From: Amycolatopsis cihanbeyliensis
GTDB taxonomy: Bacteria; Actinomycetota; Actinomycetes; Mycobacteriales; Pseudonocardiaceae
Reading direction: 5' to 3'
Assembly (NCBI RefSeq): GCF_006715045.1
Contig: NZ_VFML01000001.1
Location: 930,001-994,000 of the forward strand
DNA: 64,000 nt
The position numbers and the translations under genes were made by a program. This document shows positions 19,100-57,350 of this stretch, one piece after another (within the stretch, counting starts at the first letter, position 1; each line of letters begins with the position of its first letter). The notes under the pieces were generated by a model. The model was not told the origin of the DNA and ran no database searches. It saw nothing but the letters and a program-made list of their open reading frames with translations.

Positions 19100-19618
19100 T
19101 CAGCGGACCTGGAGGTCGATGCAGGCGTAGAAGGCGTTGGCGGTGTCGCCGATGTTCCACACCGCGAGCACCTTCTGCCGGCCGCTCACCCCACCGAGGT
19201 CGACCGTATGCGAGACGGATGGTGGTGGCTGCTGGTTGTGGCCGTCGACCTCGGCGATCTTGCGGCCGTTCAGGAAGTACTCGTAGTTCGCGGTGCGGTG
19301 CCGCGCGGTGAACGTCCAGTTGAAGGTCACCGTGTTCCCTGCGGGGCTCGCGCGCCAGCCCTTGCTGTCGTCGTCCAACTCGGCGAACCGGGAGTTGCCA
19401 CCACTGCAACTACGCAGGCCCTTGGGCCCCTCGACGCTCTGCGGCTCCCACTTGATCTGGCCGCAGGACACGGTTCCCTGCGCGCACTGGGCCTGCCTGC
19501 TCGGCGGCGAGGACACGTACCCGTGCGCGTTGGCGACTCCAGCCGGGACGACCACAAGGGCGAGTGGAGCGATACCCGCGCCCACCGCGGCGGCAACGAG
19601 CTTCCGTTTCGTATGCAT
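19100..19618 (-). CDS. AA10 lytic polysaccharide monooxygenase (chitin-binding type)
   Basis: This is a 172-residue secreted copper enzyme that oxidatively cleaves chitin or cellulose. A signal peptide (MHTKRKLV...PAGVANA, residues 1-31) is followed by mature N-terminal His32 (HGYVSSPPSRQ). His107 in FTARHRTANYEYF completes the histidine brace, and NAFYACIDLQV is the conserved C-terminal strand. The mature domain of 141 residues is short for AA10 and has no extra carbohydrate-binding module. ATG 19618 has GAGGAG upstream; an earlier in-frame ATG would run through the structured element. It is unrelated to steroid degradation and interrupts the island. Confidence 0.9.
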   Translation of the reverse strand: MHTKRKLVAAAVGAGIAPLALVVVPAGVANAHGYVSSPPSRQAQCAQGTVSCGQIKWEPQSVEGPKGLRSCSGGNSRFAELDDDSKGWRASPAGNTVTFNWTFTARHRTANYEYFLNGRKIAEVDGHNQQPPPSVSHTVDLGGVSGRQKVLAVWNIGDTANAFYACIDLQVR

Positions 19619-19670
19619 CTCGACTCCTCTTCGGAGAACGGCGTTCCCAGTGCCCCATTCAAAAGTCGGA

Positions 19671-19766
19671 TTATTCAGGTCCGTAGCGTGCGTCAACAAT
19701 GCGTTGACCTGCAACGACCGTTCGCACGGGCCTGGCGGCCCGCGGTCACTGGGTCGTTCTGAATAA
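19671..19766. other. Candidate structured element, copy A
   Basis: Four potential stems: outer TTATTCAG (19671-19678) with CTGAATAA (19759-19766); GTCAAC (19692-19697) with GTTGAC (19703-19708); AACGACC (19713-19719) with GGTCGTT (19752-19758); inner CGGGCC (19727-19732) with GGCCCG (19737-19742) over a TGGC loop. The same architecture recurs at 55135-55232. Copy A lies 53 bases upstream of the LPMO start, within its leader if transcribed on the minus strand. Confidence 0.6.
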
Positions 19767-20378
19767 CCCTCCCAGTGGCGTTCCGACAGATCCGGCATTC
19801 CGGGAATCTTCGAAAACGCAGGGGCCACTACAAGGAGGGAACGGTAGGGCGAAGAGCCACGAACGACTCTTCACCATGAGGGCGACATTGGCATCGGCGT
19901 ACCGCGGCGAGCCGGCTCCCATTCCACGGCCACGCTTACCAATGTGGTCCAGACCATACGTCGCCGTTTCCATTGTGGTCAAGAGGCGACAACGCGAGGG
20001 CGGAACGGGTTAGCGGTTTCCGTAGCGCATTGCAGCAGGCGCACTCATTCTGATGCGCCTACTGCAACGGACACCATTCTTGGTGCCTTGCGGACAGCTC
20101 CCGACCAATCCTTCACGGCAGATGGTGACTCCACGAATTCGCACCCGGCCGCTTTTCACTCACACGAGTGAACTTGTTCCACCCCCGGAACGGGAACCAT
20201 TCCACGGGACCGAGAACGCCGCCGAACCCCGATGCGTACCCGGAAGCGGCGTCGGGGTTCCCTCGGTTCGGTCTCCGGGCACGTCCCGGATGCGACCTGG
20301 CCCGCGTGCCGGGAATCCTCTCCGGTGCGTGCCGCGACCGCGGCCACAGGGACGTCTACGAGAAGGGGGACAACCACC
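19767..20378. other. Intergenic stretch with hairpins, no gene seen
   Basis: Between the structured element and the membrane protein gene I see no convincing reading frame with a ribosome site. It holds the dre-like site, a strong hairpin at 20030-20067 (TTGCAG-c-AGGCGCA / TGCGCCT-a-CTGCAA, 10-base loop) and a 7-bp hairpin TTCACTC-ACAC-GAGTGAA at 20155-20172. GC content is lower here than in the coding regions. Confidence 0.6.
19945..19956. promoter_or_regulatory. DasR-type dre-like site upstream of the LPMO gene
   Basis: TGGTCCAGACCA differs by one base from the core TGGTCTAGACCA of the dre element bound by DasR, the GntR-type regulator of chitin and N-acetylglucosamine use in actinomycetes. 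It lies 327 bases upstream of the LPMO start, far for a direct repressor site unless the leader is long. Confidence 0.4.
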
Positions 20379-21079
20379 ATGTCCGAGCCAAGGACGCCGG
20401 AAGCCGCAGCACAACGCCTCGGCATGCGGTCGTCCGGGATCCTGGCGCTGGCAGGCACCGCACTCACGATCGTGAGCACCCTGCTCCAGCAACGGATGGA
20501 CATCCCGCGCGGCGACCCACTCGGAGGGCTCGCCCACATCGAAGCGCGACCGTGGTTCGCCGCGGCCCTGGCCGGCATGCTCGGGATGCTGTGCTGGGGT
20601 ATGGCCTTCACGGCAGCCGGTCGCAGCCTCCGGGACCCGGCGGGCAGGACGCTCGCCCGGATGGCCGAACCCGTGCTTCTCGTCGCGGTCGCGGTGTTCG
20701 CCGTGCACTACGCGCACGACGGGTTCAGCAGCGGCGTGCTCGCCGGGCAGTGGTCCTCCGGTGAGCGCGACCCGGCCGCCGCCCTGGCGGACAGCCGCGT
20801 CATGGAAGGGTTGATCGGCGGCACCTCCATCCTGTCCCAGACCCTCATCGGCCTGGCGCTGGCCCTGTACGCCCTGGCGATGCTGCGCGGCCGGCAGTAC
20901 CCGCGGGTGCTGTCCTGGGTGGGCCTCGTCGGTTCCGCCGGATGGTTTCTCGGCGGCTCGGCGCTGTTCCTGCGCCTGCCCGGGATGTCGTTCGAGCTCC
21001 TGCTCCCCTTCACCGGGCTGGCCACGGTCTGGGTCGTGGGCGTCGGGATCACGCTGGTGCGCACCCGCGTTCCGCGCCG

Positions 21080-54464: not shown

Positions 54465-55134
54465 GAAGGTGACTCCCTGTCCGGTTCGCCACTGGTCTGT
54501 TCGGTGCTGGTCTGTCCGGTACTACTGTCCATGTCCTGTCGACCCCCGTACCGGTCGACGCGGTGCTGGTCGACGCGGTACCGGTCGACCGCAACTCGCA
54601 CGATGCAAGTGCAGGCGCACGAGCAACCGCACGAGCTTCGCGCCTTGGCCGGCACGGTAGCCAACGTGGCTAAAGAAGCGTACACCAATCGAGTGGAAAT
54701 CAATTTCTCCGCACATACCCGACATGACCAGCCGAAATGATGTTGTGAATCCTTTCGCAAGGTCTTCTCGGCGACAACGCTTCGGCAAGCGAGCAATTCG
54801 GTTACAGATTCCATAAGGTCACCGGTTCGCGTGTCACCCACTCAGACCTTGCGACGCCGGCGCGCCGCGGGCGACGCCTACCGGGCGTACCCATACGCCG
54901 GGACATGGCCGAGATAAATTCCACGATGATGTGGTGTTTCATCGCCGGGCCGACACGGCCGACCGGCCTCGTCGCCGATCCGCTCGCGGGTACCTCCGGA
55001 ACACCGCTCCCCGACTCGTGATCACGAACGGTAATTACTGACCGGTTACCCGACCCGTTCCCGATCATCGTACATCCGTCGGTTGCCGCATTCTCGCGGG
55101 TAAGGTCCACTACCGGTGTCCTATTCACAGGTCG
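54465..55134. other. cvnA upstream region with short tandem repeats, no gene seen
   Basis: The 670 bases contain tandem units: CTGGTCTGTTCGGTG / CTGGTCTGTCCGGTA (54490-54519) and GTCGAC-centred units GGTCGACGCGGT (54553-54590). From 54600 to 55050 GC content drops and no frame looks coding. A cvnA promoter must lie here; I cannot place -10/-35 boxes with confidence. Confidence 0.5.
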
Positions 55135-55232
55135 GTTGTTCAGTCCGGGTCACGCCATAGCCGCTGCCGTGACCTGCAACGACCGCTCGCACGGGCCTGG
55201 CGGCCCGCGGTCGCTCGGTCGTTCTGAACAAC
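55135..55232. other. Candidate structured element, copy B
   Basis: Stems: outer GTTGTTCAG (55135-55143) with CTGAACAAC (55224-55232); GGTCACG (55148-55154) with CGTGACC (55168-55174); AACGACC (55178-55184) with GGTCGTT (55217-55223); CGGGCC (55192-55197) with GGCCCG (55202-55207) over TGGC. The last two match copy A exactly; the first two differ in sequence but stay paired. It ends 106 bases before the DUF485 gene. Confidence 0.6.
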
Positions 55233-55338
55233 TCTCCCGGCGTCCCACAACCCACTAACGAGTGAGGGCGGTGGACGTCGCTACCATGTGCGCCCTGCCT
55301 CGCGCAGTCCCGACCGCACCCCTGCCTCCGGAGAGCCC

Positions 55339-55758
55339 ATGCACGATGTCGCACGCGCCACCACGGCAGGCAACCCGCTCGAGGAGACCGGCCGTATCCC
55401 GGTGATGTTCGGCGGGCGGGGGGCGGAGCCCCGGCCCGCGACCAGCGTGACCCCGGATTTCGAGCGCATCCAGCGCAGCTCCGAGTTCGGCGCCCTGCGC
55501 CGCAGGCTGCGCAGGTTCGTGTTCCCGGTGAGCCTGCTGTTCTTCGCCTGGTACCTCAGCTACGTGCTGCTCGCGGCCTATGCGCACGACTTCATGAGCA
55601 CCAAGGTGTTCGGACAGGTCAACGTGGCGATGGTGCTCGGCATGCTGCAGTTCCTCAGCACGGTCGTGGTCACCGTGGCCTACCTGCGGTTCGCCAGGCG
55701 GCAGATCGATCCCCGGGTGGCCGAGATCCGCAGGCAGGCCGGGGTACCCGAGGCATGA
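55339..55758 (+). CDS. DUF485 small membrane protein
   Basis: This 139-residue protein starts at ATG 55339 with GGAGAG upstream. Two transmembrane helices are seen (LFFAWYLSYVLLAAYAHDFMS and VNVAMVLGMLQFLSTVVVTVAYLRFA) with the DUF485 signature between and RVAEIRRQAG at the end. DUF485 proteins (YjcH) travel with SSS symporters such as ActP; its stop overlaps the symporter start by four bases. It is probably an accessory subunit. Confidence 0.9.
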   Translation: MHDVARATTAGNPLEETGRIPVMFGGRGAEPRPATSVTPDFERIQRSSEFGALRRRLRRFVFPVSLLFFAWYLSYVLLAAYAHDFMSTKVFGQVNVAMVLGMLQFLSTVVVTVAYLRFARRQIDPRVAEIRRQAGVPEA

Positions 55759-57350
55759 GCGCAGCACTCGCCGCGGACGGGCGGATCCTCAGCGACCCGG
55801 TGCTGAACACCGGGGTGTTCGCGCTGTTCGTCGCCATCACCCTGTTCGTGGTCTACCGGGTCAGCCACCGCAACCGGTCGACCGCGGACTACTACGCGGC
55901 GGGCAGCATCTTCACCGGTCGGCAGAACGGGATCGCGCTGTCCGGCGACTTCCTGTCCGCCGCCTCCTTCCTCGGCATCGCCGGCGCGATCGCCATCCAC
56001 GGCTACGACGGCTTCCTGTACTCGATCGGGTTCCTGGTCGCCTGGTTGGTGGATCTGCTGCTGATCGCCGAGCTGCTGCGCAACACCGGCCGGTTCACCA
56101 TGGGCGACGTACTCAGCTTCCGGATGCGGCAACGACCGGTCCGGGCGGCCGCGGCCACCTCCACCATCGTGATCTCGTTCTTCTACATGCTCGCGCAGAT
56201 GGCAGGCGCCGGCGGGCTGGTCGCGCTGCTGCTGAACATCCACAGTGGCTTCGGTCAGGCGCTGGTGATCGGCGTGGTCGGGCTGGTGATGGTGCTGTAC
56301 GTGCTGGTCGGTGGCATGAAAGGCACCACGTGGGTGCAGATCATCAAGGCCGGCCTGCTGATCCTCAGTGCGACCGGGATCACCGTGTTCCTGTTCGGCA
56401 AGTTCGGCTTCAGCTTCTCCGGTTTACTGTCCGCGGCCGCCGACAACAGCCCGCTCGGCGAGAAGCTCCTCGAGCCCGGCGGGCGGTACGGCGCGAGCGA
56501 CATCAGCAAGCTCGACTTCGTCTCGCTGGCGGTGGCGCTGATCCTCGGCGCCGCGGCACTGCCGCACGTGCTGATGCGGTTCTACACCGTGCCGAACGCG
56601 CGGGAGGCCCGCCGTTCGGTGGTCTGGGCCACCGCCTGCATGTTCGTGTTCTACCTCTGCACCCTGGTGATCGGGTTCGGTGCCGCCGCGCTGGTGGACC
56701 CGGAGACGATCCGCAACGCTCCGGGCGGGGAGAACTCCGCGGCCCCGCTGCTCGCACTGGAGATCGGCGGCAGCGTACTGCTCGGCATCGTCTCCGCCGT
56801 GGCCTTCGCCACCATCCTCGCCGTGGTGGCCGGGCTGACCATCACGGCATCGGCCTCGTTCGCGCACGACGTCTACGCGAACATCGTCAAGCGCGGCAAA
56901 GTCGGTGCGGACACCGAGATCCGGGTGGCCAGGTACACCGCGGTGGTCGTCGGTGTGCTCTCGATCGTCGGCGGTATCCTCGCCAACGGGCAGAACGTCG
57001 CGTTCCTGGTGGCGTTGGCCTTCGCCGTGGCGGCCTCGGCGAACCTGTCGACCCTGCTGTACTCCCTGTTCTGGAAACGCTTCAACACCATGGGAACTCT
57101 CTGCGGTATCTACGGCGGGCTCGCCGCATGCCTGGTCCTGGTGCTGTTCTCGCCGGTGGTGTCCGGTGCCCCTGACTCGGTCTTCCCCGGGATCGACTTC
57201 CACTGGTTCCCGCTACGCAACCCCGGCCTGGTGTCGATCCCGTTCTCCTTCCTCTGCGGCTTCGTCGGCACCCTGCTCGGCAGGACCAAGGCCGATCCGG
57301 GCAAGCACGCCGAGATGGAGGTCCGTTCGCTGACCGGCATCGGCGCCTGA
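55755..57350 (+). CDS. Sodium:solute symporter, ActP-like
   Basis: This 531-residue SSS-family transporter has about 13 TM helices. Signature parts: RSTADYYAAGSIFTGRQNGIALSGDFLSAASFLGIAG, MKGTTWVQIIKAGLL, LPHVLMRFYTVPNAREARRSVVWA and ASANLSTLLYSLFWKRFNTMG. Best-known relatives import acetate or short carboxylates with Na+ or H+. It overlaps DUF485 (ATGA) and is followed 12 bases later by the polyamine genes, so its substrate might instead be an amine precursor; the sequence does not decide. Confidence 0.88.
   Translation: MSAALAADGRILSDPVLNTGVFALFVAITLFVVYRVSHRNRSTADYYAAGSIFTGRQNGIALSGDFLSAASFLGIAGAIAIHGYDGFLYSIGFLVAWLVDLLLIAELLRNTGRFTMGDVLSFRMRQRPVRAAAATSTIVISFFYMLAQMAGAGGLVALLLNIHSGFGQALVIGVVGLVMVLYVLVGGMKGTTWVQIIKAGLLILSATGITVFLFGKFGFSFSGLLSAAADNSPLGEKLLEPGGRYGASDISKLDFVSLAVALILGAAALPHVLMRFYTVPNAREARRSVVWATACMFVFYLCTLVIGFGAAALVDPETIRNAPGGENSAAPLLALEIGGSVLLGIVSAVAFATILAVVAGLTITASASFAHDVYANIVKRGKVGADTEIRVARYTAVVVGVLSIVGGILANGQNVAFLVALAFAVAASANLSTLLYSLFWKRFNTMGTLCGIYGGLAACLVLVLFSPVVSGAPDSVFPGIDFHWFPLRNPGLVSIPFSFLCGFVGTLLGRTKADPGKHAEMEVRSLTGIGA

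Follow-up and report, generated by a model that had tools for sequence, protein, structure and literature searches.

The structured repeat upstream of an LPMO gene in Amycolatopsis cihanbeyliensis is probably a copy of a small, non-autonomous, MITE-like mobile element that behaves like bcr1, is moved in trans, and maintains a fold of its single strand. Two copies, A and B, lie in the window, a stretch of 64,000 nucleotides at positions 930001-994000 of contig 1, and all coordinates of these copies are window coordinates. The first-pass annotation of the window had described a fixed, four-stemmed element. Instead, the element is a mobile repeat with many copies in its own genome, flanked by target duplications, with empty sites in a close relative and paired changes in its stems. 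It is a new family within a known kind of mobile repeat, the nearest kinds having been compared by description.

Borders of copy A were set by comparing 59 complete copies in its own genome (G000) and by its empty site in genome G013, a near relative that is 93-95% identical (table 1). The extent first annotated, 19671..19766, captures the folded stems but falls short of the repeat unit, which spans 19650-19771 and, in copy B, 55116-55236. From the left, the element consists of L1 (TGTC-TTATTCA), L2 (TGTCGGG-TTATTCAG), hairpin 2, stem 3 with hairpin 4 inside it, and, at the right tip, R, which is the inverse of L2 followed by TC. A TTATTCA core is present near the left tip in L1, in L2 at a distance of 16 bp inward from that of L1, and inverted near the right tip in R. 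The tips are unequal in that they share this core and differ in their outermost bases, and the right tip pairs most strongly with the subterminal L2, not with the left tip. Letters were checked for the outer stem, AACGACC/GGTCGTT, and CGGGCC/GGCCCG, which are present in both copies where they had been annotated. The leading G of copy A may be part of the target duplication.

Table 1. Features of the two window copies and their neighbors (window coordinates)
Feature	Position	Strand	Basis or remark
LPMO_10 gene adjoining copy A	19100..19618	-	PF03067, E 3.1e-24
CCAG, target duplication of copy A, left	19647..19650	.	single in G013 empty site
Copy A, short (122-bp) form of mobile repeat	19650..19771	+	own-genome comparison and G013 empty site
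Outer stem, left arm (L2), GGATTATTCAG in copy A	19668..19678	+	covaries with right tip
Hairpin 2, GTCAAC/GTTGAC	19692..19708	+	within genus, covariation not above shuffles
Stem 3, AACGACC/GGTCGTT, encloses hairpin 4	19713..19758	+	between-genus covariation
Hairpin 4, CGGGCC/GGCCCG, almost invariant	19727..19742	+	long form: 48 extra bases before hairpin 4
Outer stem, right arm CTGAATAACCC, at right tip	19759..19769	+	covaries with L2
CCAG, target duplication of copy A, right	19772..19775	.	single in G013 empty site
CCGG, target duplication of copy B, left	55113..55116	.	
Copy B, short form, 121 bp; left arm of hairpin 2 out of register	55116..55236	+	alignment
CCGG, target duplication of copy B, right	55237..55240	.	
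DUF485 gene adjoining copy B	55288..55758	+	context only
SSF symporter after DUF485 gene	55755-57350		context of copy B

Sizes of the element fall into two main classes, and neither has room for a transposase gene. The 59 complete copies of the own genome comprise 33 of a short form (about 122 bp) and 26 of a long form (about 170 bp). The long form carries a 48-bp insert (CCCGTCGCCCACC...GGTGGCGCTGCGCGCCG, as in the copy L072:1346-1515), which is a repeat in its own right, dispersed across the genus (L129, L130, L132-L140); in L130 it is present as four tandem units. A TCCCGC border typical of the long form is present in some short copies, so the short form may be the long form minus the insert, or the long form may be the short form plus it. 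One copy of only 52 bp (G011:C36:95958-96009) is barely more than the ends and has CCCTG, five equal bases, at both borders; either it moved at that size or its middle was lost after insertion. At another locus (L227, G130:C81:16330-16580), two copies lie head to tail, three bases apart, and have different outer-stem sequences.

Copies are numerous in few genomes. With copy A as query, 45 matching pieces were found in the own genome (7.4 Mb in two contigs), and of 60 relatives searched, four matched, including the own genome and one with a 33-base piece only. In four genomes of the genus, 77 copies could be placed from end patterns, additional stretches, and local alignments; 71 are complete. 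A covariance model was built from 39 short copies (33 own, four from G013, and one each from G011 and G080). At E 0.001 it gave 73 matches in the own genome, seven in G013, 15 in G011, and 32 and 70 in G119 and G130, which belong to other genera, with some matches being partial. Across 297 genomes of the family (46 genera sampled), six in five genera, own included, were matched and 291 were not under the stricter filters used. A model search of this kind had been proposed as a check by the first-pass annotation; it recovered further copies, and paired changes were seen across the four genera compared. The element is also present in an A. palatopharyngis contig. Of eight candidate loci, the model confirmed only the Amycolatopsis one (L176, E 9.2e-9); for the remainder, three partial matches (E 0.008-0.083) and four without a match were taken as chance. 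Long-form matches in 32 of 80 genomes of the genus are mostly to the 48-bp insert and were excluded from the copy count.

Own copies are mostly between genes: 12 of 59 lie inside coding-like frames (14 by other criteria), compared with a fraction of 0.58 for random points in the same stretches. No copies were found in the phage, plasmid, or viral collections searched, using blastn with copy A for phages, blastn with the long form for plasmids, and the exact core pattern for viral contigs, and a phage or plasmid origin was rejected on these grounds. About 4.5 kb separates a complete copy from a right-end fragment in one region of the own genome (L110, G000:C1:3277200-3284900), where both are surrounded by P450-like, dioxygenase-like, and acyltransferase-like frames that form an apparent biosynthetic cluster, judged by eye from translations.

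Other repeats were seen alongside the element. A second dispersed family, GAGGGTTNTGCACAG ... TTGTGCAYAACCCTC, has at least eight sites in the own genome, of which five were read (C1:4747162, 2676480, 3053343, and 538055, loci L121-L124; 4595199, locus L120). It shares the right tip of the element, and some of its copies have a left tip like that of the element as well; the same enzyme possibly moves it. A high-copy repeat of about 50 bp lies beside the element copy at G000:C1:4408770 (positions 1882-1934 of the G013 flank query) and has at least 23 matches in G013.

Flanks of the element repeat three to five bases. Across the 71 complete copies (the six truncated ones of the 77 placed were left out), all four of four flanking bases agree in 30 copies, relative to a mean of 2.3 and a maximum of 9 in 10,000 shuffles. 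At least three of four agree in 51 copies, relative to a shuffled mean of 17.0 and a maximum of 31 (10,000 shuffles). Right flanks end in G in 58 of 71 copies, and C precedes the left block in 42 of 71, so the target resembles C-NNN-G and the duplication can be counted as three, four, or five bases. In 29 copies from G011 and the other genera the signal is weak (nine with at least three of four bases vs. 5.5 in shuffles), and for these we infer mobility from dispersal only.

Comparisons to G013 revealed sites without the element. Window positions 19100-19652 and 19770-20700 are contiguous in that genome, with an eight-base overlap; its site reads GGCGTTCCCAGTGGCGTTCCG, with TCCCAGTG once, and is the empty site of copy A. 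Joined 42-base flanks of 26 further own copies (22 long and four short) were searched in G013 and 12 sites are clearly empty, each with one alignment across the junction (one only 79% identical). Of the rest, two are marginal, one is in another high-copy repeat, and 11 have no spanning match, three of which match one flank only. No filled site was seen among the 26, and flanks of 42 bases could overlook one. A composite transposon was considered for two long-form copies that share an orientation and are separated by about 1 kb (G000:C1:3152878-3154223/3154234). G013 has neither copy, and its two empty sites lie about 0.9 kb from each other, so the pair was taken as two neighboring copies and the composite transposon rejected.

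The fold of the element is supported by paired changes, most clearly in the outer stem. In 69 copies of the genus (two internally deleted copies of the 71 were left out), the L2-R stem covaries at three pairs, each with a p of 0.0035 or less in 2000 shuffles. States at these pairs are T-A in 48 and C-G in 10 copies, A-T in 34 and G-C in 13, and A-T in 56 and G-C in four. Among 34 disjoint nearest-neighbor copy pairs, two-sided changes number 5, 9, and 3 and one-sided changes 9, 15, and 9; the frequency of one-sided changes counts against a maintained fold. L1 and R show no significant excess of covariation in the genus (lowest p 0.056), and none of 19 pairs in stems 2 to 4 reaches a p below 0.03 (lowest uncorrected p 0.035). 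For the structure as a whole, two-sided change was found at 10 pairs in the 39 short copies, compared with 5.8 in shuffles, a number reached by one of 500 shuffles, and the true structure beat all six slid controls on every measure. Hairpin 2 in these copies has three pairs with some change on both sides and 78% of cells paired.

Comparisons between genera extend this pattern to stem 3. The set has 39 sequences of four genera, with 16 from the genus, 12 from G130, 10 from G119, and one from G109, a genome of another genus; the other-genus rows are 23 of 26 listed copies, after L244, L245, and L247 were dropped as ill-fitting. Arms were read from raw letters, anchored on the sequence alignment. 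Stem 3 is 95.6% paired versus 81.2% when shuffled (maximum of 85.0 or 86.8, depending on the kind of shuffle) and the outer stem 88.6% versus 76.3% (maximum of 80.2 or 80.9), percentages that are not p-values because related copies are not independent, and that include other-genus sequences found by a structure-containing model, which favors paired matches. Variants of stem 3 across genera include AACGACC/GGTCGTT, ACCGATC/GATCGGT, ACCGGCC/GGCCGGT, GTCGATC/GATCGAC, CCCGATC/GATCGGG, and others. Judged from these alignments, there is good cross-genus evidence for a maintained fold. Since other genera keep much of the fold with different letters, its role seems to lie with the element and not with the neighboring gene.

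The first-pass annotation had drawn its compensatory changes from the two window copies, which are far too few, but the 39 to 69 copies compared here bear out covariation of the outer stem. Its second example, GTCAAC/GTTGAC in copy A against GGTCACG/CGTGACC in copy B, holds for one base pair. Copy A has a true paired change from C-G to A-T, the sole A-T among 67 copies with letters there, whereas the alignment places the GGTCACG arm of copy B at a nonhomologous position.

We propose that a transposase acting in trans probably recognizes the repeated TTATTCA core (L1, L2, and inverted in R). A staggered cut at C-NNN-G-like sites would insert the element and duplicate 3 to 5 bp. As a single strand, the element would fold with L2 paired to R and with hairpin 2 and stem 3 plus hairpin 4 inside. 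The fold may be kept because it is useful to the element, either protecting transcripts that cross it or forming hairpins when single-stranded.

It is possible, and we consider it tentatively, that the fold works as RNA, such that crossing transcripts are stabilized, processed, or terminated and selection on the host or the element keeps the pairs. RNA effects of this sort are among those that PMC3446304 discusses for bcr3, bcr10, and bcr18. Of the 59 own copies, 49 have the lower folding energy on the - strand. Copy A folds modestly on the + strand (z -1.91, with 10 of 200 shuffles equally good) and well on the - strand (z -4.63), and copy B has z of -4.23 and -6.06 on the + and - strands, respectively. 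Rough gene calls classify the own sites as 26 codirectional, nine divergent, six convergent, 14 inside genes, and four unknown. At 19 of the 26 codirectional sites the element runs against its neighbors, and the better-folding strand would be the one transcribed, but this is a small, post hoc count on those rough calls. A predicted LPMO transcript would likewise carry the better-folding - strand, and paired changes across genera are also consistent with an RNA. Wobble, however, favors no strand consistently, with 16 G-U versus 33 A-C events in the outer stem and 45 versus 31 in the inner stems (22 vs. 15 in hairpin 2, 12 vs. 9 in stem 3, and 11 vs. 7 in hairpin 4). Comparison to Rfam, another check that had been proposed, matched no family, either in the window at gathering score or, with a cutoff relaxed to E 5, in the surroundings of one long-form copy. 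A known RNA family was rejected on this result, which also counts against an RNA role. Strand signals are mixed and lean mildly, but not decisively, toward the - strand acting as RNA. Of the original reading of the paired changes as a functional RNA or cruciform and not a chance repeat, the maintained fold stands on its cross-genus pairing and the RNA does not follow.

Paired changes could instead be mutational, in which template switching in imperfect palindromes overwrites one arm with a copy of its partner and stems stay paired without function. This would fit the out-of-register arm of hairpin 2 in copy B. It would also fit a locus in G119 (L255, G119:C5:75700-76400) where, by eye, the stem 3 core is enclosed in an outer stem of 15 bp whose arms, GCGTGCGTCGTCCGG and the inverse of it, are quite different in sequence. 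We consider it rather unlikely as the explanation, in that four genera retain a largely similar architecture at equivalent positions and mismatches from one-sided change are frequent and persistent, such as A-C at pair 24/115 of the outer stem in 17 of 69 copies.

A more specific version of a mobile element with a maintained fold is that transposition itself requires the fold, in which the right tip would pair with L2, as RNA or single-stranded DNA, before staggered-cut insertion with duplication. To our knowledge, from a search that was not exhaustive, no described bacterial transposon combines a fold requirement with target duplication by staggered cut, and we regard this version as improbable.

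It is very improbable that an IS200/RAYT-type (Y1) enzyme moves the element in the form of a folded DNA single strand, as with REP sequences. The element is palindromic, intergenic, and multicopy, and its folded ends keep pairing, all of which would fit such movement. Target duplications nevertheless flank the element, and Y1 enzymes, as far as we know, make none. At E 0.001, Y1_Tnp has no match in G000, G013, G011, or G119 and three in G130. A REP/RAYT element was rejected on the target duplications and the lack of a Y1 match in the own genome. Last, the element almost certainly does not control the LPMO gene as a riboswitch or other cis-regulatory RNA, for although copy A is 31 bp upstream of the presumed LPMO ATG, as annotated, the orthologous site in G013 is empty, the model finds no element in LPMO stretches of six relatives (L164-L169), and dozens of copies are elsewhere in the own genome; the link to this gene is incidental.

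For the preferred reading, a MITE-like element moved in trans, candidates for the enzyme were sought. Among 30 of 37 DDE_Tnp_1 matches in three genomes, scanned for element tips with four of five flanking bases equal, none is a convincing autonomous partner. In six sets of related transposase copies, which cover 16 of the 30 loci, the ends begin with CTAGGGCG, CTAGCCCG, CAATACCG, or (C)AGTGAGGTGATCTCAGC, unlike those of the element, and two loci with potential partner ends, L183 and L212, are weak (2+2 and 1+2 mismatches) and were judged chance. Tip patterns spaced 0.4-5 kb apart in the own genome yielded three pairs among 100 listed of 145 left tips. None was accepted as an autonomous element, two being neighboring copies and one having a poor left tip. 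Transposons of the Tn402/Mu type have ends starting with 5'-TGTC and five-base duplications, but a link to them was dropped because the right tip of the element does not end in CA. We infer an enzyme that acts on the element in trans, and know of no matching transposase.

The element is short, multicopy, and gene-less, as MITEs are, and has target duplications in the genus. Target duplications are likewise made by Correia/NEMIS, ERIC, YPAL, and pneumococcal repeat units. As PMC2229807 and PMC3733652 portray them, these repeats are also short and gene-less, with inverted tips and RNA-structure motifs. The element differs from Correia/NEMIS-type MITEs in that its right tip pairs best with the subterminal L2, and it is likened to them by description. 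The closest kind appears to be structured MITE-like repeats such as bcr1-bcr3 of the Bacillus cereus group, which in the accounts of PMC3446304 and PMC6542083 are 100-400 bp, intergenic, MITE-like, and present in tens of copies. They are often within untranslated regions, and bcr10 and bcr18 have conserved secondary structure (PMC3446304, PMC6542083). Both traits of the bcr1 type, mobile-element features and conserved secondary structure, were found in the element. Their movement is tied, in those accounts, to a TTTAT motif as opposed to the degenerate C-NNN-G target of the element, their hosts are in another phylum, and the likeness is drawn from descriptions. GTAG/CGTC REP repeats are also palindromic and dispersed, and the 48-bp insert has CGTC near a GC palindrome. 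REPs, however, are 20-40 bp (PMC3733652) compared with about 120-170 for the element, which has target duplications and no Y1 match in its own genome. For CGTC repeats, the portion of PMC3733652 that lists their distribution gives five phyla and does not mention Actinobacteria. In open-licence literature, we recognized no account of a comparable repeat from Amycolatopsis, Pseudonocardiaceae, or actinomycetes, and a description elsewhere is possible.

The element also carries a caution, in that two copies with "compensatory" stems, one of them adjacent to a gene, are not necessarily a riboregulator. It provides structured mobile repeats that can be counted in actinobacteria, with empty sites between close genomes and about 70 copies in a genome of another genus. 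This set allows a direct test of whether covariation in bacterial MITEs comes from a role as RNA, from an intermediate of transposition, or from hairpin mutagenesis.
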